NCBI GenBank assembly: GCA_016840515.1
Contig: JAEOSF010000007.1
Coordinates: 1 to 64,000, forward strand
From: Candidatus Borrarchaeum yapensis
Lineage (GTDB): Archaea; Asgardarchaeota; Sifarchaeia; Borrarchaeales; Borrarchaeaceae
Direction: 5' to 3'
DNA: 64,000 bases
The notes below the pieces were generated by a model. The model saw nothing but the letters and a program-made list of their open reading frames with translations. It ran no database searches and had not been told where the DNA came from. Below, piece after piece: positions 4,399-28,218 of this stretch. Numbering within the stretch: the stretch's first letter is position 1; the number at the start of each line of letters is the position of its first letter. A program made the position numbers and the translations under genes.

Positions 4399-4547
4399 AT
4401 TTAGATGAGCTTAATTTCGAATATATGAGCTGAAACGATCTCTTTTAATCTTTCCATCGTGTCAGTTTTTGAACATTATTTAACATGATGTTTTTTTCTA
4501 TTGCATCTTGTTATGAAGACACCAGAGAGGATAACTTTAGTTTAAAT

Positions 4548-6098
4548 CTATTCAGCAGGTGCCGAAAGTACCTGCTCCAATGTTTGTGTGTCACCATACC
4601 TGATAGCTTGAACAGGACATTCTGAAACACAGATTCCGCAGCCCCTGCAAAGACTTTCATGTACCTGAGCCTTTCTTGTTCTGAGAGGTATACCCGCTAC
4701 CTCTGCCACAGGTAACTCTAGTTCTACTACCTGCAGACTAATAGCACAGAAGGGACATGCCTCTCTACAATATCCGCAACCAATACAGTAGTCTGTTTCA
4801 ACGAATGCTTTAGGCGTCCATAGTTCTGGCGGCGCAAATTGTGAAGCTATTTTTGACACAACAGCATTAACATTTGTCATTGCAGCCATAATGTCGTCCT
4901 GTTGCAGATCAACGCCTATAACAAAGATTCCATGCGTTTTTGTTTCAAGGGGTTCTGATTTTGATTTCTTAACAATAAATCCTTTTCTATTCAGTTTTAA
5001 ACCTAAAACGGAAGCCAGTTGAGTCATATCTTCAGAGGGAAACAACTTATCAAAGAGGACAGCCATATTGATTTTTAGTTCTTTGTCCTGATTTTTGTCT
5101 TTGTATTGAAGAACTAAATTTTTACTATCTGGATCTTCTTCTACTGCAGAAATACTCCCATCAATATAACTGACACCGTCTTCTATTGACCTTTGAATGA
5201 ATTTGGCAAACACCTCATCTTCTAAAGTTCCATCCATAAGAATAAAACAATCGATATTGGGTTTTTTTTCTTTGACACGAATAGCTTGCTTTAATGCACT
5301 CGCTTTTTGTGATGTTGATGAGTCTAAGGTAATGAATGCAATGCTTTCAGGAGTCTTTCTGTCAGAGATTCTAAGAATTTGCCCCTCAGTGGGTCCATTC
5401 GGAGTTAGAATTCTTTCAAATTCTAAAGCCGTTAGTACGTTTTCAAAATCATAACCAAACTTTGAGAGAATAGAGTCATCATGCCGTGATACACCAGTTG
5501 CGATGATTATTGCATTAACATCGACTTGAATCTCAACTGGCTTCTGATCAAAGTCAATAGCACCTTTTGGACAGAGTATTTGGCAGCTTTTACACATTTT
5601 ATTGGCATTGAAGTATAAACAGATGTCTTTGTCAATCACATAAGTTTTCGGTACTGCCTGAGTAAAGGGTGTATAAGCAGCTTTTCTTCTACCAAGACCA
5701 ACGTTAAAATCATTATCTACAGTTACTATGGGACAAATAGTAGCGCATGTATCACAAGCGTCACATTTTGTTCCATCAACAAAGCGAGGGTGCTTTACAA
5801 TAGTTATCTTAAAGTTGCCTGCGGATCCTGTGACCTTTGTTACCTCAGAATATGTAAGAAGTTCGATATTTGGATTTTCTAATAGATCACCAAAAAGAGG
5901 AGTGAGGTAATAAAGCGAGTCTTCCATTGTTGGATACAATTTGTCAAGTTGTGTCACCCCGCCTCCAATATTAGGGCGTTTTTCAACGAGGTAGGTTTTA
6001 AAACCTAATTTTGCAAGATCCAATGATGACTGGATACCTGCAATTCCACCACCAATTACCAAGACCGCATTTTTTGACTCGTTGAGATGGCTAGCCAT
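4548..6098 (-). CDS. HdrA-like flavoprotein lacking the N-terminal domain and key cysteines
   Basis: A 516-residue HdrA paralogue. It has the dinucleotide-binding motif VIGGGIAG near residue 15, an inserted ferredoxin domain (CDACDTCATICP and a second cluster site), and two C-terminal [4Fe-4S] motifs (CIGCGYCREACP and CRGCGICVSECP). It lacks the roughly 140-residue N-terminal cluster domain of full HdrA. At residues 55-65, YPTMEDSLYYL replaces the family motif PTxDCSICIL, so both cysteines are gone. The QCVGSRD...CCM region is also degenerate (TLDSSTSQKASALK). It may therefore be a structural or electron-relay partner rather than a complete bifurcating subunit. ATG start with a perfect AGGAGG site, 15 bases after the HdrCB-like gene, so almost certainly co-expressed with it. 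Confidence 0.85.
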   Translation of the reverse strand: MASHLNESKNAVLVIGGGIAGIQSSLDLAKLGFKTYLVEKRPNIGGGVTQLDKLYPTMEDSLYYLTPLFGDLLENPNIELLTYSEVTKVTGSAGNFKITIVKHPRFVDGTKCDACDTCATICPIVTVDNDFNVGLGRRKAAYTPFTQAVPKTYVIDKDICLYFNANKMCKSCQILCPKGAIDFDQKPVEIQVDVNAIIIATGVSRHDDSILSKFGYDFENVLTALEFERILTPNGPTEGQILRISDRKTPESIAFITLDSSTSQKASALKQAIRVKEKKPNIDCFILMDGTLEDEVFAKFIQRSIEDGVSYIDGSISAVEEDPDSKNLVLQYKDKNQDKELKINMAVLFDKLFPSEDMTQLASVLGLKLNRKGFIVKKSKSEPLETKTHGIFVIGVDLQQDDIMAAMTNVNAVVSKIASQFAPPELWTPKAFVETDYCIGCGYCREACPFCAISLQVVELELPVAEVAGIPLRTRKAQVHESLCRGCGICVSECPVQAIRYGDTQTLEQVLSAPAE

Positions 6099-6113
6099 AT
6101 ATGAGCCTCCTAA

Positions 6114-7274
6114 TTAGACACCTAAAGCCTTTGCAACTAGTGTTACAAAGTCCATTACTTCAATTCTTGTGAAATCCAAAGGTTTATCCTCGCCCTTTTC
6201 ACATCTAAGGCAGTTAAAATGCATCTCACACTTGGGGCATGTATTCACTAATATTTGTGCTCCTGTGTTCTGTGCATCGGTCAATCTATCTACACGTATA
6301 GCTTTTGCGTAATCATCACAATTCAGCCAAGCACTTACACCACAACAGAGCGCTTTTTCTTTATTTTTCTTCATCTCTTTGAATGTAAGGCCAGGGATGT
6401 TCTCCATCACTTTCCTTGGGGCATCATAAACGCCCATGTGCCTTCCTAGTCGACATGGGTCGTGGTAAGTTACCACTCTGTTGAAATGTCTTGGAAATTC
6501 TAATTGTCGTTCATCAATTTTCTTGGCAAGAAATTCAGAAAGATGAATCACTTCAAAATCAAAATCGGAAACATAATTCGGATAATCTACGGCTAGCGTG
6601 CGGTAACATTCTGCACAAGTAGTTACAATACGCTTCACATTAGCTTTCTTGAAGGCAGCTGTATTGTACTCTGCCAATTTAAGAAATGCATCTTCATCGC
6701 CAGACCATAAAACGTCATGTCCACAGCATTTTTCGTCCTCAAGGACTACAGGGACAATATTCAATTCGTTGAGGATCCTGACAGCGTCTGGTGAGATTGA
6801 ACCATAATTAGTACCCATTTCGGCAAAGTAAGAGACTTTATCAAAAAACTCTAAACAACCAACAAATAAAGCCGTTTCTCCTTCCTTATTTATTTTAGCA
6901 TCTTCTGGCCAGTTCAGCAATTTGTTTGGCTTAATATTAGGGTTTGCCATTAATCTAGTTGCTGTTTTGAAAATCTCGTGATGTGTTTCTCTGAAGTTTT
7001 GGTAGCCCTCACGTACCGCATTGGTTCTTACTGTCCTAATAAACTCAGCAAAATTAATAGCCATTGGGCAATCTGGGACTGTGCATTCATTGCACGTTAG
7101 GCATCGCCAAACATCTTTAGACTTTATCACCTCTTCGGTGTCTCCCGAAAGTATTTTCTGAATTATAACTCTAGGCGATTCCATAATATGCCCAAGTGGG
7201 CATTTGCCAGAGCATTTGCCACATTGATAACAATAATCTACTATATCTTCAGCAGTCATCATGCTTTTCTGCAA
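6114..7274 (-). CDS. HdrC-HdrB fusion (HdrD-like) with two CCG domains
   Basis: A 386-residue fusion. The first 100 residues are an HdrC-like double ferredoxin (CYQCGKCSGKCP, then CLTCNECTVPDCP). The rest holds two cysteine-rich CCG domains with CCG at about residues 182 and 309, each followed by a CxxC (TTCAECY, NTCPKCEMHF). Such domains bind the noncubane clusters that reduce disulfides in HdrB/HdrD, and also occur in GlpC and lactate-oxidase subunits. Neighbouring HdrA-type and MvhD genes favour a heterodisulfide-reductase-like complex; the physiological disulfide is unknown. The TTG at 7274 is chosen because GAGGG lies seven bases before it; ATG codons follow four codons later. Confidence 0.85.
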   Translation of the reverse strand: MQKSMMTAEDIVDYCYQCGKCSGKCPLGHIMESPRVIIQKILSGDTEEVIKSKDVWRCLTCNECTVPDCPMAINFAEFIRTVRTNAVREGYQNFRETHHEIFKTATRLMANPNIKPNKLLNWPEDAKINKEGETALFVGCLEFFDKVSYFAEMGTNYGSISPDAVRILNELNIVPVVLEDEKCCGHDVLWSGDEDAFLKLAEYNTAAFKKANVKRIVTTCAECYRTLAVDYPNYVSDFDFEVIHLSEFLAKKIDERQLEFPRHFNRVVTYHDPCRLGRHMGVYDAPRKVMENIPGLTFKEMKKNKEKALCCGVSAWLNCDDYAKAIRVDRLTDAQNTGAQILVNTCPKCEMHFNCLRCEKGEDKPLDFTRIEVMDFVTLVAKALGV

Positions 7275-7330
7275 TTTAATACCCTCATAACTGATTTTGG
7301 GAATCTGTCGAAAGTTTAATATCCATTTTA

Positions 7331-8527
7331 TTATTCAGCGCTACTCGCTGCTTTCATGCCTTTCAGAGATCTTGGAGGCGTTCTCTCGATATCATGACCA
7401 GGCGTGTATTTGAAGAGTTCTTTTGAACTTTCAACCAATTTCTTTGAAATGAGACATAACGGAATATTCTTTGGACATACTTCTGAACATTTTCCACACG
7501 CGATGCACGTATCTCCTACATGAGATAAGCGAGTTAAATTAATCATGATAGGATCTAATTCCTTTCTTTTTCGTATAACATTACAGTCTTTACAATAGCA
7601 GATTGGACATGCACGAATACACATCATACAACTCGTACATTGCTCGAAATTTGAAATTATATATTCAAACCGCTCTTCATCAGACATTTCGTCTAATTTG
7701 GCAAATTCGGACTCTTGTAACTCAAGCGCAGTTTGTTCTAAGGAGGTAATGTAATTCTTGAGTTGTTGAACATCCTCATCAGAAAGTTTTTCTACCTCTA
7801 TCACTTCAGTTGCTGCTTTCTCCAACACTTCCTTTCCCCGTATAGAACGAACTTCAAAAATCTCTTCATTTCCTTCTAGAGGATGATCGATCCAGAACGT
7901 TAAATCAGCAACATTTTCTTGTGGCACCCGCTCGGCGCACTGGTTACAATAACTCCTAACATCAATTTCTTCGCCTAACTTGAAGGTGTGAGTTGTTCCA
8001 TTATTCAGTTCCAGAGTTAAGACTCCGTTATTTATTTTTTCGTTAACCACGCTTTCAGGGTCAATGTCGGCTTTTTTAAGGACTTTCTTGAGTTCTCTTG
8101 GGTCTATTCGACCGATACATTCGAGTCCAATCACGAAAAGATTATCAATTGAAACTTGATCACGTTTTGCCAGTTCTATAAAAGCTCTAACATCACAGGG
8201 CCTGGCAATAACTCCTATTTTTTTGTCTTTTGCCCCGTTGAGTTTAGAGGCAACATATTTAGAAACAGAGTCGATGTTTGGCAAGTTATAAGCAATAAAT
8301 TGAGAAAGAGAAATATCAAAAATTTCCTTGGGCTCTTCCACAAGGACTGGTTTTAGTGTAAAATGATCCTTACGTTCTGTAAATGATAAAAAGGTGTCTA
8401 CTATTTGATTTTTCAACATGAAATTCATAATTGCTTGAATTGCACCGTTCCCATACTTTAATTCACGGGATTCAAGCTCTTCAAGACCTTCTTTTAGTCT
8501 AGCAGCGACAAATTCTCCGATTTCCAT
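7331..8527 (-). CDS. FrhB/FdhB-family F420-type oxidoreductase subunit
   Basis: A 398-residue protein of the coenzyme F420 hydrogenase/dehydrogenase beta-subunit family. GVIARPCDVRAFIELAKR at about residues 104-121 and VIGLECIGRIDP at about 130-142 are typical of the FrhB/FdhB core that binds flavin and passes electrons to or from F420. The C-terminal third carries two [4Fe-4S] motifs (CTSCMMCIRACPICYC and CIACGKCSEVCPKNIP). In this operon it may connect the HdrA/MvhD complex to F420H2 or another two-electron donor, standing in for the hydrogenase that is absent from this strand; this is inference. AGGAGAG lies about 11 bases before the ATG. Confidence 0.83.
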   Translation of the reverse strand: MEIGEFVAARLKEGLEELESRELKYGNGAIQAIMNFMLKNQIVDTFLSFTERKDHFTLKPVLVEEPKEIFDISLSQFIAYNLPNIDSVSKYVASKLNGAKDKKIGVIARPCDVRAFIELAKRDQVSIDNLFVIGLECIGRIDPRELKKVLKKADIDPESVVNEKINNGVLTLELNNGTTHTFKLGEEIDVRSYCNQCAERVPQENVADLTFWIDHPLEGNEEIFEVRSIRGKEVLEKAATEVIEVEKLSDEDVQQLKNYITSLEQTALELQESEFAKLDEMSDEERFEYIISNFEQCTSCMMCIRACPICYCKDCNVIRKRKELDPIMINLTRLSHVGDTCIACGKCSEVCPKNIPLCLISKKLVESSKELFKYTPGHDIERTPPRSLKGMKAASSAE

Positions 8528-8628
8528 TTGGATGTAGACTCTCCTGAGGGAATTGATAAAGATAGGATATAACTGCCGCTCCCCTCGCAGGGGCGTTAAC
8601 TCATGGCTCTAGGTTTTTCCCACGAGCG
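8528..8628 (-). promoter_or_regulatory. candidate SECIS-containing 3' region of mvhD
   Basis: This is the first non-coding stretch of useful size after the two selenoprotein-like genes. On the minus strand it contains CCCCT-GCG-AGGGG (a strong stem-loop near 8580-8593), a CTC/GAG-bounded stem around GGGAAAAACC next to the mvhD stop, and two ATGA tetramers. Archaeal SECIS elements usually sit in the 3' untranslated region, so it is the best place for one. I cannot fold it reliably by eye and do not claim a match to the SECIS consensus; it could also be a terminator or processing site. Confidence 0.35.
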
Positions 8629-9081
8629 TCATTCTTTCGCAGCAGGTCGATTTTTTAAGGGATTTGGTCCTAATTTCAAGATTTCGTTTGTCACTTCAAT
8701 CGCCGTTTTCGCAAATCTTTCTCCTTCAGCAGCAGAACACCATTTCATTTGAATACGGCGTTCATCAAGACCGATCAACGTTGCTAGTTTTTTGAGATAA
8801 TCAATCTGCATCTTTGCGACTTTGTTCCCAATCTCAAAGTCACATTCGCCTTCATATCATCCAACAACTAATACAGCGTCCGCGCCTTTCCGTAAAGCTC
8901 TAATGATAAGATCAGGTGATACTCTTCCAGCACAAGGAATCCGTATCGGCTTAATTGTAGCAGGATATTGCATCCTTACAATTCCTGCCATATCAGCAGC
9001 GCCATAACCTCATTTCCAGCAAACGAATGCAACGATATTAGGTACAAATTCTTCGACTTTTTGCTCTTGGCTCTGTGTCAT
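8629..9081 (-). CDS. mvhD: MvhD/VhuD-like [2Fe-2S] subunit with two TGA-encoded selenocysteines
   Basis: Reading two in-frame TGA codons as selenocysteine (U) gives 150 residues, the family's normal size. Motifs are CWKUGYGAADMAG (residues 21-33), PCAGRVSPD (49-57), VGUYEGECDFEIGN (73-86) and a C-terminal WCSAAEGERFA. In relatives the U positions are cysteines of the [2Fe-2S] site. MvhD passes electrons between a hydrogenase or dehydrogenase and HdrA. The ATG at 9081 follows a GGAGG located in the last codons of hdrA, only four bases away, so the two are co-translated. The final codon is also TGA; if it were read through, the frame would go on for 11 residues to a TAA at 8596. Standard gene finders would report only the short C-terminal piece. 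Confidence 0.88.
8857..8859 (-). other. in-frame TGA, predicted Sec75 of MvhD
   Basis: The codon falls where relatives have the cysteine of VxGCHPGDCHY. Similarity continues in the same frame on both sides, so a frameshift is excluded at this point. Confidence 0.85.
9010..9012 (-). other. in-frame TGA, predicted Sec24 of MvhD
   Basis: It replaces the second cysteine of the CxxC pair in the N-terminal FxCxxCxYxxAD motif. The same reading frame continues through it. Confidence 0.85.
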
Positions 9082-9085
9082 TCGT

Positions 9086-11098
9086 CTAACCTCCTACTCC
9101 TTCCTTTACTGATGCCTTTTCCGAAGCGGATGTCTCGGCTACGGCTTCTTCGGATGCCAATAATGAATCAATGTATGCTTCTAGTTGTTCATCCCTGTAA
9201 TATCTTAGCGCAATAGCGTTTGATAAGCATACTGAACTGCACGTGCCACATCCTCTGCACCTGACATCGTCCACTTTCGCAATACCATTTTCCATAGTTA
9301 TTGCATCATAGGGACATGTTTTAACGCAGAGTGTACAGCCTGAACATCGTTCATCGTCCACAAGTGCCTTGATAAGTTCCATTTCATACTTTCGTGTTAT
9401 CATTGGTCCACTTGCCGCAGCTGCAGCTCCTTTTGCTGAAGCTACCGTCTCAGCAATGGATTTAGGCCCCTGTGCAACACCACAGACATAAATGCCTGGG
9501 ATCTTCGTGTCTATGGGACTAAGACGAGAATGGAATTCTTTGATAAAACCGTCAGGACTCTTTTCAAGTCTCAATAGAGCAGCAATCTCATTAGTTCCTT
9601 CACCTGCAACCATGGCCACTGATAAAATTACTAGGTCTGCTTCGATTATCTTGAGTTGGTTTGATAGTGTATCTTCAACTTTCAGAAACAGATTCTTGGT
9701 TTCTGGATCTTCTGAAATTTCTGAAACGTTTCCTCGTAGATATTTTATCTTATGTTTCCTAGATCGCGTGTAGTACTCCTCGAAATCCTTTCCAGCAGCT
9801 CTTATATCCATGTAACAAATTGTTATTTCAGCATCAGGATCATGCAGTTTTGCCAATTTCGCATTCTTGATGCCAACCATGCAACAGTATCCCGAACAGT
9901 GTAAATTCTTTGTTCGATCCCGCGATCCGACGCATTGTAGTACTGCGATTTTCTTCGGTGCTTTGTCATCGGAAATCCGACGCAGATGACCTAGGGTAGG
10001 TCCGTTTGGTGCTAAGAGCCTCTCGAACTCATTCTGAGTAATGACGTTTTCGTATTCCCCATAACCATAGAGACCGTATGGTTTGAATTCATCAAAGCCA
10101 GTGGCAACTATTATCGTCCCTACACGCAATTCTGTAAACCTAGGTTTTTGATTAAAGTCGATCGCGTCTAGTTCACATGCTTTGACACAAAGGCGACATT
10201 TGATGCAGTAATCCATATCGATTGTAACAATATTCGGAACTGCCTGAGCAAATGGTTTATAGATCGCTTTTCTTGGCCCAAGACTACAGTCAAACTCGTT
10301 AGGAGCATAAACAGGACAGGTATCTTGACAATTACCACAGCCATTGCATCTTATTTCATTGATATATCTGGGTTTATGTTCAACAGTAACTACGAAATCA
10401 CCGATCACGCCTGAAACGCTTTTTACTTCAGAATAACTCATGACTTCAACGTTAGGATGTCGGTCAGTTTCAAGCATCACGGGGCCCAATATTCAAATGC
10501 TGCAGTCGTCCGTTGGGTACGTACGGTCGAGCATTGCCATGTGCCCGCCAATGCTAGGAGCCTTTTCAACTAGATAAACTTGGAATCCTTCATCTCCTAG
10601 ATTCACTGCTGCAGATAGACCTCCTATTCCACCGCCAATGACTAATGCAGTAGGCTTTACACCGACCACCTTTCTGGGAACGTCTTCTAGTTTAGCAGCA
10701 CGAGCTATACCTGCTCGCAATAGATCTTTTGCTTTCTGCAGAGCATCCTCTGGTTCTTCCATGTGGACAGACGCAACATGCTCTCGAACGTTAACAAACT
10801 CTAAGTAGCTAGGACTCAGCCCTAATTCCTTGAGCACTGCCCTGAAAACAGGTTCATGTGTTTTTGGCGTACAAGATGCAACTACTATTCTGTTTAAGTT
10901 GTAAACAACGATTTTATCCTTGATCAGATCTGCACCAGCGGTTGTACATAGCGATAGATTGTTTACTGATGTGACAACATTCGGCAAAGTTGCCGCATAT
11001 TCGGTCAACGTCGGAACGTCGACATACGCAGCTATTTGGAAGCCTCACTCACAAACGAAAACTCCAATGCGAATTTCTTCTTCTTCTGAAATTCTCAT
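9086..11098 (-). CDS. hdrA: full-length HdrA with two TGA-encoded selenocysteines
   Basis: HdrA is the FAD-containing electron-bifurcating subunit of heterodisulfide reductase complexes. From the ATG at 11098 (GGAGGTG site seven bases upstream) to TAG at 9086 there are 670 residues, the normal length, if two TGA codons are Sec. The N-terminal domain reads VFVCEUGFQIAAYVDVP (U18; usual form CxCG). The FAD fold has VIGGGIGGLSAA, and the conserved cysteine motif reads PTDDCSIUILGPVM (U202; usual DCSICIL). An inserted ferredoxin domain (CNGCGNCQDTCP, CIKCRLCVKACE), QCVGSRD with CSGYCCMVG, and two C-terminal clusters (CSGCTLCVKTCP, CRGCGTCSSVC) complete it. It is followed four bases later by mvhD and preceded by a polyferredoxin gene, implying one operon. 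Confidence 0.92.
10493..10495 (-). other. in-frame TGA, predicted Sec202 of HdrA
   Basis: It sits at the second cysteine of the family motif DCSICIL. Frame and similarity continue on both sides. Confidence 0.9.
11045..11047 (-). other. in-frame TGA, predicted Sec18 of HdrA
   Basis: It takes the place of the second cysteine of the CxCG motif in the N-terminal cluster domain. The codons before it, back to an ATG with a strong ribosome site, read as a normal HdrA N-terminus. Confidence 0.88.
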
Positions 11099-11134
11099 CA
11101 CCACCTCCAAAGTGGGAAATGTTCTTTGATTCAA

Positions 11135-11893
11135 TTACTCACGTTCGTAGAATTTAAGGGGAGATCTTAATTTCGCTACTACATCAAGCCAAAATTGTGT
11201 ATATTCCCCTTCTTCATCATAAATTACTTCACGCTGTAATTCAATAGGGCATTCATTTACGCAGACAATAGGACATTCAGTGTCAAATAAGCATTGATCT
11301 TCATCTCTCATGATCGTACATTTTGTTGGACAGGCATTTACACAAGCTCCACAATAGATACATTTTTCCTCATCAAGTGCGATTTTATCAACTCGTTCTC
11401 CGCCTTCTTTAGGATGTGGTACATAAAGTGCTCCTGTGGGGCAAATGTCTGCGCAGGTGGAACAACCTCCAGGACAATTTTCTGGATAGAGTTTTATCTT
11501 ACCCTTGAATAGCTTTCGCGCCTTCATTCCTTTTTTTCTTTCTAGGTCGACAAATTCTGCGGGTAGTGCTGGAACCGCTTTGTTTTCAAAGAGTAAGTTT
11601 CTGGGCTCATCATTTATCTCTAATTTTAAGGCAAAAAAAGGGCACATATACGAGCATGTTCCACAGTAAACACACTTATTCTCATCGATCAATATCGCAG
11701 GCGTATCTGTATCTCCTTTAATTGCTGCGCCAATAGGTCCTCTTTCAATTGCTGACTTTGGACAGACAAGGATACAAGTCCCGCAACCTGTACAGCGATT
11801 TCTATCATAATTAAGTTTTAGATCAACAGTTAAGAGTTTGAATTCTGCGGTTACTTTATCAGGTTCAACAATCTTTCGGTGCAGCGGCAACAT
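11135..11893 (-). CDS. polyferredoxin (FwdF-like)
   Basis: A 252-residue iron-sulfur protein with four clear [4Fe-4S] motifs: CTGCGTCILVCP, CVYCGTCSYMCP, CPGGCSTCADICP and CIYCGACVNACP. A further cysteine stretch (CLFDTECPIVCVNECP) could hold another cluster. It likely shuttles low-potential electrons between the HdrA complex and formylmethanofuran dehydrogenase, as FwdF does; it is shorter than usual FwdF (about 350 residues). The ATG overlaps the stop of the upstream ferredoxin gene as TAATG, with GAGGTGA about eight bases before it. hdrA begins 36 bases after its end. Confidence 0.8.
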   Translation of the reverse strand: MLPLHRKIVEPDKVTAEFKLLTVDLKLNYDRNRCTGCGTCILVCPKSAIERGPIGAAIKGDTDTPAILIDENKCVYCGTCSYMCPFFALKLEINDEPRNLLFENKAVPALPAEFVDLERKKGMKARKLFKGKIKLYPENCPGGCSTCADICPTGALYVPHPKEGGERVDKIALDEEKCIYCGACVNACPTKCTIMRDEDQCLFDTECPIVCVNECPIELQREVIYDEEGEYTQFWLDVVAKLRSPLKFYERE

Positions 11894-12135
11894 TAGCGAG
11901 TCACCTCTGTAGCAGTTACAATAATTTTTATCGCGTTAACAGGGCAAGCCTCAATGCACATTCCGCAACCGTCACATAACTTTGATTTCACAACTTGAGC
12001 TTTACCTTTCTTAACAACGAAAATTAAGTTTTCATGATCTTCATTTATTAAACATAATTGAGTCTTTGGACACGCAGTATAACAATCTCCACATCCATGA
12101 CACAATCTTTCATTGATAACAATTTCGTAAGGCAT
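11893..12135 (-). CDS. 2[4Fe-4S] ferredoxin (FwdG-like)
   Basis: An 80-residue dicluster ferredoxin: CHGCGDCYTACP with a further Cys four residues on, then CDGCGMCIEACPVNAI. It is the first gene of the minus-strand cluster and probably carries electrons to or from FwdB. I chose the second ATG (MPYEIVIN) because GAGGG lies six bases before it; the ATG two codons earlier overlaps that ribosome site. It overlaps the polyferredoxin start by one base. Being FwdG rather than a generic ferredoxin is inferred from position. Confidence 0.8.
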   Translation of the reverse strand: MPYEIVINERLCHGCGDCYTACPKTQLCLINEDHENLIFVVKKGKAQVVKSKLCDGCGMCIEACPVNAIKIIVTATEVTR

Positions 12136-12141
12136 TAACAT

Positions 12142-12734
12142 CCCTCAAGGTCATAGGAGTTTGCCGATAATCACCCAAAAGTGAGGCGATCAACAGTCCT
12201 TTAAGCAGTATTTGGATATTTAAGCATTTACTTTTTATGAATTTTACACCCAGTCGCTTAACTAGAATAGGATGAGGCTTCAAGAAGATTACAGGATCAA
12301 CAAAAGTTGTATTTTGAAACACTAGATCATTGAAATGTGCAAAATTGCATTGGAAAGTCAATCTAATGTTTCTTCCTCTTATCTCCTTGAAATTTTTTCA
12401 CATTGTATTAGTAAGCATGTGCTCTTTTTTATATGGTGTTTTTGGCAAAAATTCTACCTTAGCTCCAAAACAATCAATTTTTATTCATGGAGAATAATAT
12501 TCAGCTTCTCATCTTGAAAATCAACTGACTCTTTTCAATATATTCTAAATGTATCATTCAAAACATTCAAATCAGAAAATTTAAATTGGAAGACTAGTGA
12601 ACGTTTCGACAACTTTCAAATTGTATATGTGTGAAAGATCATTACTTGAAAATTCGTTGACTAGATCTACTATTCATCTATGTTAGTTTTCAAGACATCC
12701 TCTTTAATTTCCAATATGAAAATGGTGAAAAGAG
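12142..12734. promoter_or_regulatory. divergent intergenic region between the ferredoxin operon and fwdDB
   Basis: About 590 AT-rich bases separating the two arms of the formylmethanofuran dehydrogenase/Hdr island. It must hold promoters for both directions. On the minus strand TTAAATATCC near 12212-12222 resembles a TATA box; no convincing operator or RNA was seen. Short open frames here have no family features and are ignored. Confidence 0.45.
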
Positions 12735-13145
12735 ATGGGAATTAAAAAAACAAAAAAGGTCACCCTTCTTACCGGTCGATCGATTGAGCAAGGAGTTTCT
12801 TTAGAGGGCGAGAAACTTACACGCGGATATGTCCTTAGCACGGGAATCTGTGAAATCGATCCCGAGGACATGAAAGAACTAGGAATATATGATGGGGACA
12901 CCGTGATAGTTAAGACTAATCACGGACAGGTCTTAGTAAGCGGAATTGAGTCGACTCAGGCTCCACACAGAGGAATTGTATTCATACCGATGGGACTTTA
13001 CGCAAACGCGGTGATCAATCCAGAGACTGACAGTACCGGGATGCCCTCGTACAAGGGAGTCGAAGCCGTCATTGAACCAGCTCCTAATGAGAGGGTACTA
13101 GCACCTAAGGCACTAATGAAGAAAATCATGCCACTCAAAAAATGA
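12735..13145 (+). CDS. fwdD: formylmethanofuran dehydrogenase subunit D (FwdD)
   Basis: A 136-residue molybdopterin-dinucleotide-binding domain that forms part of the tungsto/molybdopterin site together with FwdB. VLLTGRSIEQG-like N-terminus (here TLLTGRSIEQGVSLEG), LGIYDGDTVIVKTNHG in the middle and FIPMGLYANAVINPETDSTG followed by MPSYKG near residues 90-115 are typical of the family. GGTGA lies eight bases before the ATG. It ends in TGA four bases before the fwdB region, so the two form an operon. Confidence 0.92.
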   Translation: MGIKKTKKVTLLTGRSIEQGVSLEGEKLTRGYVLSTGICEIDPEDMKELGIYDGDTVIVKTNHGQVLVSGIESTQAPHRGIVFIPMGLYANAVINPETDSTGMPSYKGVEAVIEPAPNERVLAPKALMKKIMPLKK

Positions 13146-13161
13146 GGAAGTGAACGAAAAG

Positions 13162-14493
13162 ATGAGCAAACAAACTGTTGTTAAAAACGTAGTATGTCCC
13201 TTTTGTGGCTGCCTCTGCGATGATATTGAAATTTACGTGGATTTAAAAGAAAACAAGATTGTAGAAACTGCAAATGCCTGTGTCTTAGGCACAGCAAAAT
13301 TCATGTCAGCCAATAATGTATCTCACAGAATCACTACTCCAATGATAAGAGAAAATGGGAAACTCAAAGAAGTATCCATCGATAAAGCCATAGAAAAGGC
13401 CGCACAGATTCTAGTGGATGCAGAATGGCCGTTGCTTTATGGATGGGCTTCAACAGAATGCGAAGCCCAAAGCGTAGGAGTAGAATTAGCCGAAGAAGTA
13501 GGCGGTTGTATAGATCAGACTGCTTCTGTATGTCACGGTCCGTCTATTTTAGGAGTGCAGGATATTGGATTATCTGGAGCCACCTTAGGAGAAATCATGA
13601 ATCGCGCAGACTTAATCATTTACTGGGGTTGTAATCCCGTACATGCTCACCCTAGACATATGAGTAGATATTCCGTTTATCGAAGAGGATTCTTTACAGA
13701 ACGTGGTGTTAAAGACAGACTTATGGTTGTGGTAGACCCACGTGAAACGCATACGGCTAAATTAGCGAACCTTTACATTCAACCGAAACCAGGTGCGGAT
13801 TTCGAATTAATAACTGCGATTAGAACTGTGTTAGCAGGCAATGAACTCTTCATCGATGAGATAGGTGGAGTTTCTAAGGAAGAAATAATTGAGCTTGTTA
13901 ATATCTTAAAGAATTGCAAATTAGGAATTGTTTTTTTCGGTCTTGGGCTCACGATGAGTCGCGGAAAGCATAGAAATATAGATATCGCCTTAAGTCTTGT
14001 TCGAGATCTTGCTGCCTTCACCAAATTTCTGATCTGTCCGATGCGTGGACATTGGAATGTGACTGGGATCGGTCAGGTCTTAGCTTGGCAGACAGGATAC
14101 CCCTTTGCAGTAGACTTTAGTAGAGGATTTCCTAGATACGGCCCAGGAGAATTTACCAGCAATGAAGTATTAGCACGAGGTGAAGTCGATGCCGCTCTAG
14201 TGATTGCAGCAGATGCCGCGGCTAATTTTCCTTTACAAGCAGCAAAAAAACTCGCAGAAATTCCTCTCATAGCAATTGACCCTCATCAAACACCTACGAC
14301 AGAGCTTGCAGATGTTTTGCTTCCTTGCTCGATAGCTGGTATTGAGGCTGAAGGCACGGGTTACAGAATGGACGGCGTCCCGATCCGCGTCAAAAAGGTA
14401 ATAGAAGCGCCAGAAGGATGCTTATCGGACAAAGAAATCTTAGAACGACTATTAGCAAAAGTAAAAGAACTAAAGGCTAAGAAAAAGGCTTAA
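13162..14493 (+). CDS. fwdB: formylmethanofuran dehydrogenase subunit B (FwdB), cysteine form
   Basis: The catalytic subunit that reduces CO2 to formate at a W- or Mo-bispterin centre. VVCPFCGCLCDDIEI at the N-terminus binds a [4Fe-4S] cluster. SVCHGPSILGVQ carries the metal-ligating residue, here an ordinary TGT cysteine and not selenocysteine, although nearby hdrA and mvhD use Sec. YWGCNPVHAHPRHMSRY and MRGHWNVTG are further family motifs. About 443 residues, normal length. The ATG at 13162 has GAGGAAG about 11 bases before it; a GTG at 13150 is possible but overlaps that site. A fwdC gene does not follow. Confidence 0.93.
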   Translation: MSKQTVVKNVVCPFCGCLCDDIEIYVDLKENKIVETANACVLGTAKFMSANNVSHRITTPMIRENGKLKEVSIDKAIEKAAQILVDAEWPLLYGWASTECEAQSVGVELAEEVGGCIDQTASVCHGPSILGVQDIGLSGATLGEIMNRADLIIYWGCNPVHAHPRHMSRYSVYRRGFFTERGVKDRLMVVVDPRETHTAKLANLYIQPKPGADFELITAIRTVLAGNELFIDEIGGVSKEEIIELVNILKNCKLGIVFFGLGLTMSRGKHRNIDIALSLVRDLAAFTKFLICPMRGHWNVTGIGQVLAWQTGYPFAVDFSRGFPRYGPGEFTSNEVLARGEVDAALVIAADAAANFPLQAAKKLAEIPLIAIDPHQTPTTELADVLLPCSIAGIEAEGTGYRMDGVPIRVKKVIEAPEGCLSDKEILERLLAKVKELKAKKKA

Positions 14494-14650: not shown

Positions 14651-14995
14651 TTAGATTTTGACTCCCAAGTTGACCTTAGATTCTGCAATTTTCTTTTGAA
14701 CAATACTTACTAAGGATTCCATCTCTGCAAGAGATTGTAAGTATTCTTGTCTTTTTTCTTTCTCTTCCATACAGTTCACCTTCAACGGACAGCTGCTACA
14801 GAATAGATTGGTTGTATCAAATTGACCAAATGTCTCACATGAATATGCCAGATTTGGTTGATTCGCGGTTTTTACCGCTTCATAGGTAAGACTTTTACCA
14901 AACGCGCAGATGTCACAACGGTGAACACTGCAGGTGTCCCAGTTTGGACAAGCGAAAGTGTTTGTTTCAGGTTCAGTAACTTCATTTTGAGCCAT
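14651..14995 (-). CDS. small cysteine-rich protein, unknown function
   Basis: A soluble 114-residue protein with ten cysteines in its first three quarters, arranged as CxxxxTCxxxxCDxC, then CETF...CSSCPLKVNC, followed by a short helical tail. The pattern suggests metal or Fe-S binding, but I do not recognise the family. GGAGGA lies before ATGTTAATG, and I use the second ATG on spacing. It is transcribed divergently from the winged-helix/HdrA fusion gene, which makes it a possible target of that protein. Confidence 0.68.
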   Translation of the reverse strand: MAQNEVTEPETNTFACPNWDTCSVHRCDICAFGKSLTYEAVKTANQPNLAYSCETFGQFDTTNLFCSSCPLKVNCMEEKEKRQEYLQSLAEMESLVSIVQKKIAESKVNLGVKI

Positions 14996-15001
14996 TAACA
15001 T

Positions 15002-15352
15002 TCCTCCATATGAGTTTTAAGAGATTTTAATTGATAATTTTCACCTATTGAATTTTTTCAGTGTTATTTCAACCATAAACGCAAGAATATATAATTTTGT
15101 CCAAAAATTTTATTTCTAAATTTTTATTGCAAAATTTTACTAAAAGTTAACTTATCTTAACGTCCAAAAGACCATCTAAACCATTGAAAAAGAAAATATT
15201 TTTTTTCCTAATTTGTAAACAAAAATTATCAAAAAAGTTTTTGTAAGTAACTATCGACAATTATTTATGAGTTAACAAAAATTTCACGATTATAATCTTG
15301 CATTCTCAGTTGAATGAAACAGGCTAAAAGGAAAAATAGAGATTTTTGAAAA
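15002..15352. promoter_or_regulatory. divergent AT-rich promoter region before the wHTH-HdrA fusion
   Basis: About 350 very AT-rich bases between the Cys-rich gene (minus) and the fusion gene (plus). It contains the perfect 10-base palindrome GATTATAATC at 15288-15297, about 55 bases before the fusion start, and TATA-like ATTATTTATG near 15260. If the fusion protein binds DNA, this is the natural place to look for its site. No RNA gene seen. Confidence 0.4.
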
Positions 15353-17938
15353 ATGGGGTTTACAATTATGGAATTATATTCGGTTCTTTCACATCCAACA
15401 AGGCAAAAAATACTCCAACTTCTTGAGAGAGAAGGGGTTTTGCCTTTTTCCGCTTTTCTGCCGCTGTTGAAGCTGGAAACGTCGGGTAAACTTAACTTCC
15501 ATCTAAAAAAGATGGGAGATTTGGTTAAAAAGAGCGGAAAGAACTATATGTTAACTGAAGAAGGCAAATTGGCTCTAAAAATCATGAAATTAAATGATAA
15601 CATCCTTTCGGGGACAGCGCAATTTGATCAAATCGATAAAGATGACATCAAAAAAGTAGGAATACTGCGTATAGGTGTCATCATCTGTTTATGCGCTGAA
15701 GAAATATCTTGCGTATTAGATGTCGCCGACTTAAAGAGATATGTTGCCTCTCTAAAAAACGTTGTTTCGGTACGCCTTGTTGATAGATTGTGCGATATAA
15801 GAGAAGTGGAGCGAATCAAAGAAGATTTTGTTGATCAGTTCTTTATTAATCGCATCGTGGTTGCTTCATGTTCACCAAGAACTCACAGTTTTGTATTTGA
15901 GGATATATTTGAGGGACTTCTCCCAGTTGAAGTAATCAAAAACACAGAATTTGCCAATATCAGGGAGCAATGTGTCTGGGTCAATGATTCAGAACCACAG
16001 ATCGCTCTTGAAAAAGCAAAGATCTTAATAGAAGCCGCTGTTAATCGGGTTATCCTTCAAGAAGACATCGAAGTAACAGAAATTATAAGAACCCAAAAAA
16101 GTGTTGCAGTGATTGGAGGTGGACTTGCGGGTATAAACTTAGCGTTATCATTTGCAAAGGCGGGCTTGGAAGTTTCCCTCATCGAAAAATCCCCAACGTT
16201 AGGTGGAAAGATTGCAAGATGGAGTACTATTCATGATGTTAAAGAGTGTGCGTCATGTTATCTTACAGAGTTAATTAGCCGAGTTGTGAAAGAGAAAAAT
16301 GTGAAGATTTTTACAAACACCACTGTCGAAAGAGTGTCTGGGCACGTTGGTAATTTTGAAATTGAATTGCTAATCCATCCTAGATTTGTCGACGTGGATG
16401 ATTGTACCGGTTGTAAGAGATGCTCCAATATGTGTCCAAATGAAAAACCAGATGAATATGAATTCGGACTTAAGCAAAGAAAGTTCATCCATATCCCTTT
16501 TTCAAATGCATATCCCTACGCCCCTGTCATAGATGAAGAATCTATTGAAGATTGTAGAAACTGTAGACTGTGTGAAGAATCTTGTCCAACGAACGCCATT
16601 AACTTAGAAGAAAAAACCAAAAAGTTGAGAATCAATGTAGGGGCAAAGGTGCTAGCAATTGGTTCTGACTTATTTCAAGATTTGTCAGCATATCAACATA
16701 ACCCTCAAAATGATGTGTTGACATCAGCTGAGTTTGAAAGGATTCTAGCTTCTGATGGTCCTACTAGGGGTAAACTGATCAAACTTTCTAATGGAAACCC
16801 ACCAAAGAGTATAGCAATAATCCAGTGTGTCGGGGGAACCTATAAATGCTCTACCTATTGTTGTACCCTTACTAAAAAGTACATTGATGAAATCGAAAAG
16901 AGGTTACCAGAATGCGAACTTCATGTATTCTATGATATCAGTAGAATACCACAGAACCCAGTTATGTGGTTTACACCGGAACATAAGATTTTTCATTGGG
17001 CAAAAATCCTTAAAGTCGAAGTAGAGGGGACTAGGAAATATATAGCGACAGAATCAGATCGTTTTGAAACCGACATGATTATTCTAAACATTGGTATGGT
17101 CCCTAACAAAAGCTTAAAAGAACTGAGAGAATCGGCCCTAGACTTCAGTTTAGATTCTAAAGGATTTATGTCAGACATTACATTAGCTTCGGGTATTTTT
17201 GGCTGTGGTTCTGTAAGAGGACCAGCGGATTATAAAACCACAATTTCTGCAACAAATGATGTTGCGATAAAGGTTATCGGTCTCTTGTCAAAAGATCATT
17301 TGATACCAGAAATTCATGGCATCACAATAGATATTGACAAATGTGGATTCTGCGGATTGTGCGTTATTTCATGTCCTTACAGGGCTATTTCCATTGATTC
17401 GGAAGACGTAATTATCGATCAATTTAGTTGTAAGGGATGCGGCATTTGCGTTGCAGTTTGTCCGACGAAAGCAATTGAAATGCAGATTGATACTACGCCC
17501 AAAATGATGAAAACAATTGAAACATACTCAAAATTTTCACAATCGCCAAAAATTATAGCCTTTGCATGCGAGTCGTGTGGTTATTCTGCCGCAGATGATG
17601 CAGGTCTTAAAAAAATACAGTACACGCCAAATGTTTTGATTGTAAAGGTGCCCTGTACGGGAAGAGTTGATACTCGGTTCATAACGTATTCCTTTGAGCA
17701 AGGTTTTGATGGCGTATTAGTGATAGGATGTCAACGAGACTCATGTAAGTACATTGATGGCTTTTCAAAAGCAGAAAAAAGAATAAAGTTGCTAAAAGAA
17801 CTTGTTCCCGAGCTCAAGGATAAACTCCACATAGTTTCGCTTTCCGCTATTGACAGTCATAAATTTGCATCCATAGTTAACGATTTTTTTAGAAGGTTAT
17901 CTGGATTAGAAAGCCCTACTATCACCGCAACGCAGTGA
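15353..17938 (+). CDS. winged-helix (ArsR-like) - HdrA - MvhD fusion protein
   Basis: A single 861-residue frame. Residues 6-85 are a winged-helix DNA-binding domain (HPTRQKILQLLEREG, GKLNFHLKKMGDLVKK, YMLTEEGKLAL). From about 102 follows a complete HdrA: N-terminal cluster domain (IICLCAEEISC), VIGGGLAGINLALSFAKAGL at about 251-270, KECASCYLTELI in place of DCSICIL, ferredoxin motifs at about 351 and 402, QCVGGTYKCSTYCC, and two C-terminal clusters at about 663 and 693. Residues 735-850 are an MvhD domain (FACESCGYSAADDAG, PCTGRVD, GCQRDSCKY). All redox positions are cysteine, unlike the Sec-containing separate copies. [NiFe] hydrogenase small and large subunit genes follow on the same strand. 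I infer a redox- or H2-responsive transcription factor, or a bifurcating complex tethered to DNA. Confidence 0.9.
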   Translation: MGFTIMELYSVLSHPTRQKILQLLEREGVLPFSAFLPLLKLETSGKLNFHLKKMGDLVKKSGKNYMLTEEGKLALKIMKLNDNILSGTAQFDQIDKDDIKKVGILRIGVIICLCAEEISCVLDVADLKRYVASLKNVVSVRLVDRLCDIREVERIKEDFVDQFFINRIVVASCSPRTHSFVFEDIFEGLLPVEVIKNTEFANIREQCVWVNDSEPQIALEKAKILIEAAVNRVILQEDIEVTEIIRTQKSVAVIGGGLAGINLALSFAKAGLEVSLIEKSPTLGGKIARWSTIHDVKECASCYLTELISRVVKEKNVKIFTNTTVERVSGHVGNFEIELLIHPRFVDVDDCTGCKRCSNMCPNEKPDEYEFGLKQRKFIHIPFSNAYPYAPVIDEESIEDCRNCRLCEESCPTNAINLEEKTKKLRINVGAKVLAIGSDLFQDLSAYQHNPQNDVLTSAEFERILASDGPTRGKLIKLSNGNPPKSIAIIQCVGGTYKCSTYCCTLTKKYIDEIEKRLPECELHVFYDISRIPQNPVMWFTPEHKIFHWAKILKVEVEGTRKYIATESDRFETDMIILNIGMVPNKSLKELRESALDFSLDSKGFMSDITLASGIFGCGSVRGPADYKTTISATNDVAIKVIGLLSKDHLIPEIHGITIDIDKCGFCGLCVISCPYRAISIDSEDVIIDQFSCKGCGICVAVCPTKAIEMQIDTTPKMMKTIETYSKFSQSPKIIAFACESCGYSAADDAGLKKIQYTPNVLIVKVPCTGRVDTRFITYSFEQGFDGVLVIGCQRDSCKYIDGFSKAEKRIKLLKELVPELKDKLHIVSLSAIDSHKFASIVNDFFRRLSGLESPTITATQ

Positions 17939-17992
17939 AGTGAATTTACAATTTGATAATTCTAGGAACGATCGGAGATGGAGAGAAACTTA

Positions 17993-18736
17993 ATGAAACC
18001 TAAAATCTTAGTAACTTCATTAACATCCTGCAACGGGTGTCTTACTTCTATTATAGAATTAGATATCTTTCCTGAGCTTTTAGAGTCCGTTGATTTTATT
18101 TTCCCACTAATTGAAGATAACGACAACAATATCGACAATTGTGACATTGCGTTAATAGAAGGAAGCGTTTCTCAAGAGGAGCAGAAAGAGGAACTTTTAG
18201 AAATCAGAAGGAAGGCTAAGAAGGTCATTGCACTTGGCCAATGTGCGATCTCAGGTGGAATTACTTCACTTTCAGATGAAATAGAAGCAATACCAATTAA
18301 CGAAATAATAGAAATAGACGGATTCATTCCAGGATGTCCGGTTCCTACAGAGTTCCTTGGAAACTCTCTAATGGCACTTTTAAATGGTGAAAGAATTAAA
18401 GTGTCTCCCAAAAACCTATGTTCAGAATGTGAACTTCGACCAGATAGTGGATTTAAAAGTAAAATAAAGATAGATAAACTAATACCTGAAAAAATACCTT
18501 TTGAGTGCTTTTTACATGAGAATGTGCTTTGTCTAGGTCCAATAACACGAGCAGGCTGTAAATCAAAGTGTATAAAGGCAAATATCCCATGTGAAGGATG
18601 TATGGGTGCAATTGTGGAAGATTTTATGTCTAATATAGTCAATTTCTTTTCATCTATTTCAGTTTCTGAGGACATTAAAACTAGTGATATGTATTCAAAA
18701 TTCACACGTCCAAAAAGCTTTGTGAAGATGGGGTGA
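17993..18736 (+). CDS. [NiFe] hydrogenase small subunit (MvhG/VhuG-like)
   Basis: The electron-transfer subunit of a group 3-like cytoplasmic [NiFe] hydrogenase; no twin-arginine leader. SCNGC near the N-terminus, GQCAISGG and GCPVP supply the proximal cluster ligands. The C-terminal CSECEL, CLGPITRAGCKSKC and CEGCMG supply cysteines for two more clusters. The ATG at 17993 follows GGAGAG by seven bases; an upstream ATG at 17978 is possible. It starts 54 bases after the wHTH-HdrA-MvhD gene and overlaps the large-subunit gene by four bases, so the three proteins probably form one complex, with the MvhD domain as contact, as in Mvh-Hdr of methanogens. Confidence 0.87.
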   Translation: MKPKILVTSLTSCNGCLTSIIELDIFPELLESVDFIFPLIEDNDNNIDNCDIALIEGSVSQEEQKEELLEIRRKAKKVIALGQCAISGGITSLSDEIEAIPINEIIEIDGFIPGCPVPTEFLGNSLMALLNGERIKVSPKNLCSECELRPDSGFKSKIKIDKLIPEKIPFECFLHENVLCLGPITRAGCKSKCIKANIPCEGCMGAIVEDFMSNIVNFFSSISVSEDIKTSDMYSKFTRPKSFVKMG

Positions 18737-20082
18737 AAAAAACGAAAAAAATGACAATAAAACCATTAACCAGAATTGAAGGTCACGGACAGATAGAGAT
18801 CTTTGTAAACAAAGACAAAGATGAAGTTTCAAGAGTAAATTTCTCAACGCTAGATTACAGAGGAATTGAGAAAATCCTTATCGGAAAAAAAATCTCAGAG
18901 ATTCCTAGATTAGTTTCGAAGATTTGTGGATTCTGTTCTGCGGCACACATAGTTGCATCTTGTAAAGCTGTTGAAAAAGCCTTGGATATAGAACCCACGT
19001 ATGCCTCAGCCTTATCAAGACAATTAGTCTTAATAGGAGAAATAATTACTAATCATATGATACATTTTGCGTACATGGCACTGCCGGATTTATTAAGTCT
19101 AGCGTCCGCAAGCCAAGAAAATGATGTTATACTTAATCGATCGGAAATTTTCGTAAAGGCGTCAAAGCTCATAAGTATCGGGAAAAATTTGATGGAAATT
19201 GTAGGTGGACGCGCTATTCAACCTGTTTCTATAATTATCGGCGGAATGTCAAAAAATTTAACAGAAAAAGAAGTAAGCCTTTTAAAAAGGAGTTTAAAAA
19301 GCGGTATTGCTATTGCTAAATTTTTCCTTAATTTTGCACAGGAAATAATCGAAAAAATTGATGATACAGTAAAAATGTTTGAATTGAAAAATCCGTTGTA
19401 TATGGGACTTCAGAGAGATGGAACATATAGTATCTATGATGGGCGCTTAAAAATTGCGAATGAAGACAGAGAAACTTTGGCAACTTTTGATGTAAACGAT
19501 TATGACAAGTTCATCATTGATAATAGAATAAAAACTTCAAGCCTCACTTCATCAAGTACGCAAGAAAGAGGAAGAGGTTTTTTGGTAGGACCTCTAGCGA
19601 GGTATCACATAACAAACGAATATGGGGTTTATGAAGTTCATGAAATCCTTAAGGATTTTCAGAAATGGGATGAAAACATTTTAATGATGAATGTCTTAAG
19701 GTTGATTGAAATCCTTGTATGTTTATATAAAGGGCTTTTGATCCTCGATAATACAGAAATAACTAAAGAACAACCTGTTTTTGTTACATCTACGAAGTTA
19801 AAATACGATAACATATTTAGCGCCGTGGAAGCACCTAGAGGAACCTTAATTCACTACTATAAAGTGAATGAAAACATGACTGCCGATGATGTAAAAATCC
19901 ATGTCCCAACAGAGTTAAACACCTTTTCAATTCACGAAATTCTAAACAGAATTTGTCAAAAAGAATTCACTAAAAATAAATCTCTTGAGACCGTACAAGA
20001 GACTGCGAAATTTATAGTGAGATCTTTTGATCCCTGCATTTCATGTTCATCTGTCAGCCTTCAAAAAGCACACCACGTTTGA
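18733..20082 (+). CDS. [NiFe] hydrogenase large subunit (MvhA-like), partly divergent
   Basis: The H2-activating subunit, 449 residues. RIEGHGQIEIF, KICGFCSAAHI and DPCISC keep the four nickel cysteines, and VEAPRGTLIHYY keeps the active-site arginine. Other motifs are altered: GGRAIQPVSIIIGG where relatives have GGRxxHPxxxxPGG, and the residue that is normally His three after the last cysteine is Val. Eleven residues follow the last cysteine, so a short peptide might be cleaved by a maturation protease; one is encoded at 27.7 kb. Starts at GTG within the overlap GTGA of the small-subunit stop. The altered motifs suggest a slow or sensory enzyme, but this is inference. Confidence 0.87.
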   Translation: MKKTKKMTIKPLTRIEGHGQIEIFVNKDKDEVSRVNFSTLDYRGIEKILIGKKISEIPRLVSKICGFCSAAHIVASCKAVEKALDIEPTYASALSRQLVLIGEIITNHMIHFAYMALPDLLSLASASQENDVILNRSEIFVKASKLISIGKNLMEIVGGRAIQPVSIIIGGMSKNLTEKEVSLLKRSLKSGIAIAKFFLNFAQEIIEKIDDTVKMFELKNPLYMGLQRDGTYSIYDGRLKIANEDRETLATFDVNDYDKFIIDNRIKTSSLTSSSTQERGRGFLVGPLARYHITNEYGVYEVHEILKDFQKWDENILMMNVLRLIEILVCLYKGLLILDNTEITKEQPVFVTSTKLKYDNIFSAVEAPRGTLIHYYKVNENMTADDVKIHVPTELNTFSIHEILNRICQKEFTKNKSLETVQETAKFIVRSFDPCISCSSVSLQKAHHV

Positions 20083-27690: not shown

Positions 27691-28218
27691 TTACTTTAAC
27701 TTCATTTTAAGTTTTTTGACTTCACTGACGATTGTTTTTATAATATCAGTGATTTTATTACTTACTTCCTCTGAAAGATTTAAACCATGGGAAGAGTATT
27801 CTTTTGGTTCAATACCTATTATTATAACTTCAGTTTTCATGCCCAGTTCTTTACCCACTTGAAGCGTGTAGGTTAGGTCGATATCATGGGCTGAAAACAT
27901 ACGTTGAGAATCTGGTGATTTGGAAATTTGTTCTGGACTTAAAATATAGATATCTCCCGGTTTGCCTCCTGCTAAAACAGCATCAACAATAAAAACTGTA
28001 TCGAAATCCTCTATTAGTTTTAAGAGAAGGAGGCCTCCTGTACCTCCATCAATTAGTTCTACATCTTTTAATGGATCGTAACGCCTTTTTACTTTTTCTA
28101 GGGCACGTATTATGTGAATTCCTACCCCTTCATCTTTGTGTAAAGTGTTTCCTACGCCCATTATTGCTATTTTCCTTTTAGGCAAAGAGATGCCTCCAGA
28201 TTGTAAGTTGGACTCCAT
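27691..28218 (-). CDS. [NiFe] hydrogenase maturation protease (HyaD/HycI/FrcD family)
   Basis: A 175-residue endopeptidase of the family that trims the C-terminus of the [NiFe] hydrogenase large subunit after nickel insertion. IMGVGNTLHKDEGVGIH at about 19-35 contains the nickel-binding acidic residue, VFIVDAVLAGGKPGDIY the second, and FSAHDIDL the histidine. It is the only maturation gene in the window and lies 7.6 kb from the hydrogenase genes, whose large subunit has only an 11-residue extension; whether it acts on that one is not known. It follows its own upstream region. Confidence 0.9.
   Translation of the reverse strand: MESNLQSGGISLPKRKIAIMGVGNTLHKDEGVGIHIIRALEKVKRRYDPLKDVELIDGGTGGLLLLKLIEDFDTVFIVDAVLAGGKPGDIYILSPEQISKSPDSQRMFSAHDIDLTYTLQVGKELGMKTEVIIIGIEPKEYSSHGLNLSEEVSNKITDIIKTIVSEVKKLKMKLK

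Follow-up and report, generated by a model that had tools for sequence, protein, structure and literature searches.

The stretch of DNA considered here (the window, 64,000 nucleotides) consists of positions 1 to 64,000 of contig JAEOSF010000007.1 of the Asgard archaeon Candidatus Borrarchaeum yapensis, whose genus is placed in the class Sifarchaeia (PMC9723677). Positions 15353-17938 hold an intact 861-codon frame, with no interruption, in which a winged helix, a complete HdrA and an MvhD domain are joined, and this fusion gene is followed by the genes of the small and large subunits of a [NiFe] hydrogenase (Table 1). The three genes are referred to as the cassette. An earlier note on this DNA had described the single unbroken frame, and the Pfam and NCBIfam assignments agree with it; only the start calls for a correction. 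The orthologues begin at an ATG corresponding to residue 6, mostly with an in-frame stop codon just upstream, and the true start is therefore probably 15368, giving a protein of 856 residues. The 54-base gap read between the fusion and the small subunit gene fits a start at 17993, which is backed by orthologues, and the 4-base overlap of the two hydrogenase genes had been given correctly.

Table 1. Features of the cassette and of its surroundings in the window (aa, amino acids; wHTH, winged helix-turn-helix).
Feature	Position	Strand	Remarks
wHTH-HdrA-MvhD fusion gene	15368..17938	+	856 aa; orthologue-supported start, earlier start 15353
Winged-helix domain (DUF7347, ArsR-like)	15371..15571	+	residues 7-73 of the 861-aa frame; Pfam PF24038 E 2.7e-9
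Complete HdrA part (FAD domain, four CxxCxxC...C cluster motifs)	15668..17524	+	NF040770 E 8.6e-171; 5odc_A E 2.1e-103
MvhD/FlpD part	17552..17908	+	PF02662 E 1.7e-35; 5odc_D E 3.1e-24
[NiFe] hydrogenase small subunit gene (MvhG/VhuG-like)	17993..18736	+	alternative start 17978; Pfam/NCBIfam matches
[NiFe] hydrogenase large subunit gene (MvhA/VhuA-like)	18733..20082	+	Pfam/NCBIfam matches
L1 motif KICGFCSAAH	18919..18948	+	His kept; Gln in most other families
L2 motif DPCISC, then SSVSLQKAHHV	20029..20046	+	L2 His absent in Borrarchaeum
Divergent intergenic region, cassette to 116-aa gene	15002..15367		366 bp
Candidate operator TTTGTAAACAAAAATTATCAAA	15212..15233		weak: 13/16 (13.5 with T/A tolerance), shuffle p=0.012
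Cys-rich 116-aa gene, divergent from cassette, no family assigned	14651..15001	-	seen only in three Borrarchaeum loci
FwdB, formylmethanofuran dehydrogenase subunit B	13150..14493	+	TIGR03129 E 4.2e-185
FwdD-like	12735..13145	+	NF042908 E 1.1e-34

The N-terminal domain matches the winged-helix family DUF7347 with 37.6 bits, above the gathering cut-off of 27.6. The description of this segment as ArsR-like was borne out by its domain profile, which hits 1y0u, the structure of an ArsR-type repressor (E 1.3e-6), and gives a weak match to PagR; the reservation that it might prove to be no DNA-binding fold falls away, since it belongs to a recognised winged-helix family. Further along the protein, the HdrA2 match spans residues 106-853 and the FlpD/MvhD match residues 734-852. 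The winged helix is conserved to the same degree as the redox domains (mean column conservation 0.75, as against 0.68-0.74 for the redox domains and 0.66 for the linker), and its conserved recognition-helix region reads TTGQLNFHLKKLG. Across the whole fusion 27 Cys residues are invariant, including those of the HdrA and MvhD cluster motifs. Single-sequence structure prediction gave a poor model of the winged helix (predicted local distance difference test score 55), which was left unused.

A profile of the first ~206 residues, run over 393 genomes in all, detects the fusion in 56 of 228 Asgard genomes and in none of ~165 genomes outside the phylum, with a clear gap between fusions (at least 203 bits) and ordinary HdrA (at most 93 bits). 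The carriers belong to eight GTDB families (here f1, f3, f10, f12, f24, f26, f28, and f29), and the same locus is present at 96% identity on a 964-kb contig of Ca. Borrarchaeum weybense. The search across genomes proposed in the earlier note thus found the fusion to be neither unique to this assembly nor a sequencing error, as it recurs throughout the phylum. Among the 41 loci inspected closely, the cassette genes mostly overlap or abut, and all three stand side by side wherever the contig continues (38/38), the remaining three loci ending at a contig edge. HdrB and HdrC are missing from the cassette operon, the nearby Hdr genes being parts of other operons, so that the usual exit for electrons is lacking. 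Beyond the three cassette genes no gene family is common to all loci, the flanking clusters being mostly without one-by-one annotation, so that a partner kinase encoded farther away is conceivable. One Borrarchaeum genome (G003) carries a second copy of the cassette, 58% identical, on contig 88 (L045).

In most relatives, the large subunit carries two features known from bacterial H2 sensors. According to PMC8229454, the regulatory hydrogenase is devoid of a C-terminal extension and has the kinase HoxJ as its partner; the same paper cites work on a Gln that is conserved close to the active site. In Cupriavidus necator, the H2 sensor HoxC has the L1 motif RVCGICSVSQ and ends with DPCMVCTVH, and the catalytic HoxG has the L1 motif RICGVCTGCH and runs on past DPCLACSTH. 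Among the 37 readable cassette large subunits, Gln occupies the L1 position in 29 and His in 8 (Borrarchaeum, f10, and f12). Twenty-seven of 37, all f3 and f26, end exactly at the L2 His; the others have ~6-11 extra residues, and that of the window lacks the L2 His. Both CxxC motifs for the Ni-Fe site are kept in all complete orthologues, and HypD was found in 16/16 genomes. A strong HycI-type protease (E <1e-18) occurs only in the tail-keeping families f1, f10, f12, and f24, with only weak ones in f3, a pattern which fits the loss of processing. A HycI-type maturation protease gene also lies in the window itself, ~8 kb from the cassette (27691-28218, minus strand).

All 38 cassette large subunits group in a phylogenetic tree as a single clade (support 0.93), distinct from HoxC and from the catalytic paralogues of Asgard archaea; the tree includes few non-Asgard references, so that it places the clade only approximately within group 3. 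Within the clade Gln arises once, and the loss of the tail comes later. In 12/12 genomes the paralogue of the same genome is of catalytic type (a selenocysteine hydrogenase): its VhuA keeps His in L1, and VhuU, which is separate, contains an in-frame TGA and has a tail. Over the same genome pairs, catalytic paralogues are on average 65% identical, cassette large subunits 46% and fusion proteins 62%; the cassette large subunit is thus evolving faster than its catalytic paralogue, while the fusion stays at 62%.

Upstream of the cassette operon there is a palindrome with the consensus TTTGAYAA-N6-TTRTCAAA, the half-sites of which are spaced by 14 bp. A palindrome-constrained motif search of 30 upstream regions yielded TTTGACAA-N6-TTGTCAAA, with an expectation-maximization score of 147 as compared to 39-50 in dinucleotide shuffles. 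Sites of at least 14/16 are found in 58% of 33 cassette upstream regions and in 2% of 92 other intergenic regions of the same loci, and the distant families f10, f12, f24, and f28 also have sites (shuffle p 0.002-0.010). In the window the candidate operator lies in the divergent intergenic region; it is identical in weybense and partly so in G003. A wide regulon is not supported, because a genome-wide scan allowing one mismatch gave few sites per genome, and in several of the genomes the reversed control yielded as many or more; only the cassette and the promoters described below are retained.

The second location of the palindrome is an operon of one-carbon (C1) metabolism. In many f3 and f12 genomes the divergent neighbour of the cassette is a pair of genes for a ~210-residue protein and a ~560-residue Mtd-like protein (sometimes split), the C-terminal part of which is homologous to the methylene-tetrahydromethanopterin dehydrogenases MtdA/MtdB. 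The genomes of genus g3 have this pair ~10 kb away from the cassette, and its promoter retains the palindrome. Where the pair is on another contig its promoter also carries the palindrome, perfect (16/16) in the site TTTGACAATTTTATTTGTCAAA of G198. For unlinked or distant pairs in fusion genomes, a site with p<0.05 (shuffle) is present in 14/15, nine of them scoring at least 14/16. Conversely, the palindrome is absent from the Mtd-like promoters of 3/3 near-complete genomes without the fusion. Genome G179 has the site with the fusion undetected; it is 79% complete, and its contig stops just before the expected position of the fusion. By raw counts, in which phylogeny is ignored, the Mtd-like gene is found in 54/56 fusion genomes and 19/172 others. 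A stand-alone MtdA-type gene of Borrarchaeum (contig 3 of G000) has no palindrome upstream. The 209-residue partner could be assigned to no family in Pfam or NCBIfam; the ~210-residue partners (e.g., L047 3542-4189, minus strand, and L054 10503-11132, plus strand) are kin to the N-terminal 240 residues of the Mtd-like protein and tend to accompany the fusion. A gene for a CDC48-family AAA ATPase adjoins the Mtd-like operon in 16 loci (e.g., L054 16690-18936).

Taken together, these features make it likely that the operon encodes a one-component transcription factor which responds to H2 or redox state and acts on C1 metabolism of the archaeal Wood-Ljungdahl type. The earlier note had proposed a one-component H2- or redox-sensing regulator, and the proposal gains support from the sensor hallmarks, the palindrome at the cassette's own divergent promoter and at unlinked ones, and the strict conservation of the cassette; the binding and the H2 signal are inferred from these. 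The hydrogenase pair would oxidise H2 at its Ni-Fe site, or equilibrate with it, and electrons would pass from the clusters of the small subunit to the MvhD part and then to the clusters and FAD of the HdrA part. In the known complex HdrA forms a dimer, and a change in its redox state could thereby reposition two attached winged helices on the inverted repeat. The electron path would end in a change of DNA affinity, towards either binding or release on reduction, with activation or repression as the outcome. The predicted targets are the cassette's own promoter and C1 operons both near and distant, above all the Mtd-like operon.

Several points weigh against this interpretation. Binding to DNA and response to H2 are presumed from sequence, and the N-terminal fold of the fusion rests on profile matches. 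The L1 His is retained in Borrarchaeum, f10, and f12, and in Borrarchaeum the L2 His has been lost, so that its Ni-Fe site may be altered. In the same genus the operator match is weak (p=0.012, and p=0.23 in the third species). In both respects the genus of the window is atypical, belonging to the branch with the weakest sensor hallmarks and the weakest operator. The cassette upstream regions of f29 have no palindrome site. Moreover, the motif was derived from data partly shared with the tests and the genomes are related rather than independent samples, so that the p-values overstate.

The main rival retains a redox-responsive transcription factor with a signal other than H2. Ferredoxin, F420 or thiol pools would set the state of HdrA and its FAD, and the hydrogenase would bleed off electrons as H2 or tune the potential. 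HdrA accepts electrons from ferredoxin in known complexes, and the HdrA and MvhD parts of the fusion, in which all cluster cysteines are retained, could do likewise; FrhB-like F420 genes adjoin the cassette in some genera, and the altered L2 motif of Borrarchaeum agrees with this view. However, the cassette has kept its hydrogenase genes in all 38 loci, and their large subunit converges on the hallmarks of bacterial H2 sensors. A signal of another kind is rather unlikely.

Lower still is the probability that the cassette is an ordinary electron-transfer or bifurcating enzyme in which the winged helix serves for dimerisation or tethering, with no part in gene regulation. Every catalytic domain of MvhAGD-HdrA is indeed present and conserved, but the operon is devoid of an HdrB/HdrC partner, the genomes already possess a catalytic-type hydrogenase (12/12 tested), and a palindrome such as a dimeric binder would use recurs at the cassette's own promoter and at unlinked ones.

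Equally improbable is that another regulator, co-occurring with the cassette, binds the palindrome. Many wHTH regulators exist in each genome, and the assignment of the palindrome to the fusion is indirect. On the other hand, the motif tracks the fusion, down to its absence in the near-complete fusion-less genomes, and only the three cassette genes are common to all loci. Finally, an assembly chimera or a frameshift artefact, which the 10% contamination of the window's genome might suggest, is refuted by recurrence in 56 genomes, the 964-kb weybense contig among them, and its probability is negligible.

With regard to known systems, the H2-responsive transcription factor proposed here is closest in function to the bacterial group 2b sensors HoxBC/HupUV, which act with the kinase HoxJ and with HoxA. 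The L1 Gln is shared by 29 of the 37 readable cassettes, though not by that of the window, the f3 and f26 cassettes also end at the L2 His, and both systems coexist with separate catalytic hydrogenases. Nevertheless, the cassette hydrogenase is group 3c-like rather than 2b, with best matches of the MvhA/VhuA type and a clade separate from HoxC; moreover, the cassette is archaeal, includes no kinase or response regulator, and has its DNA-binding domain fused to HdrA-MvhD. On the best reading, it would work like HoxBC/HupUV without being a member of that group, having evolved independently.

The cassette derives from MvhAGD-HdrA; with the MvhAGD-HdrABC complex (group 3c; structure 5odc) it shares homologues of MvhA, MvhG, MvhD, and HdrA, and the HdrA/MvhD cluster cysteines are all kept. 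It differs in the lack of HdrB/HdrC from its operon, the fusion of HdrA with MvhD, the winged helix added at the N-terminus, and a large subunit that evolves faster and has sensor-type motifs. Winged-helix proteins of the ArsR/DUF7347 kind act as dimers on inverted repeats. The fusion shares with these regulators (1y0u, PF24038) the winged-helix domain and the conserved recognition-helix region, whereas its winged helix is joined not to a small-molecule or metal site but to a ~750-residue redox module that carries many cofactors. HdrA-MvhD fusions are common in Asgard archaea and also occur in methanogens (PMC11237513), but that survey makes no mention of winged-helix, helix-turn-helix or DNA-binding fusions. 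The earlier note knew of no described HdrA with a DNA-binding domain; likewise, none was found in the literature, nor any archaeal H2 sensor of such a type, most subscription papers and all preprints being outside the scope of that search.

There is a reasonable likelihood that the cassette represents a new class of one-component DNA-binding H2 sensors in Asgard archaea, built from the Hdr-Mvh bifurcation machinery, in which the hallmarks of the bacterial sensors were gained independently and C1 metabolism is set by H2. H2 exchange with partners is central to the presumed Asgard lifestyle and to hydrogen-based models of eukaryote origin. If the proposal is true, an archaeal H2-responsive regulator couples a hydrogenase directly to DNA binding, without the separate signalling kinase of bacteria, and C1 metabolism is governed by a currency of Asgard syntrophy. 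It would also mean that sensory hydrogenases are convergent, Gln having replaced His and the maturation tail having been lost in two unrelated hydrogenase groups. The question can be put to the test, as the protein complex is defined and both an operator and a target operon can be named as candidates.

The neighbours of the cassette in the window are formylmethanofuran dehydrogenase and Hdr genes, that is, genes of C1 and electron-bifurcation metabolism. No Rfam match was found in the window. At 2656-14493, FwdA, FwdF-like, FwdD, and FwdB genes are interleaved with HdrA, TfrB/HdrD-like, and FrhB-like genes, and a Fwd-Hdr complex is possibly encoded there. Within this region (8707-11077, minus strand) lie paralogues of HdrA and MvhD with in-frame TGA codons, which are probably selenoproteins, as reported for Asgard archaea.

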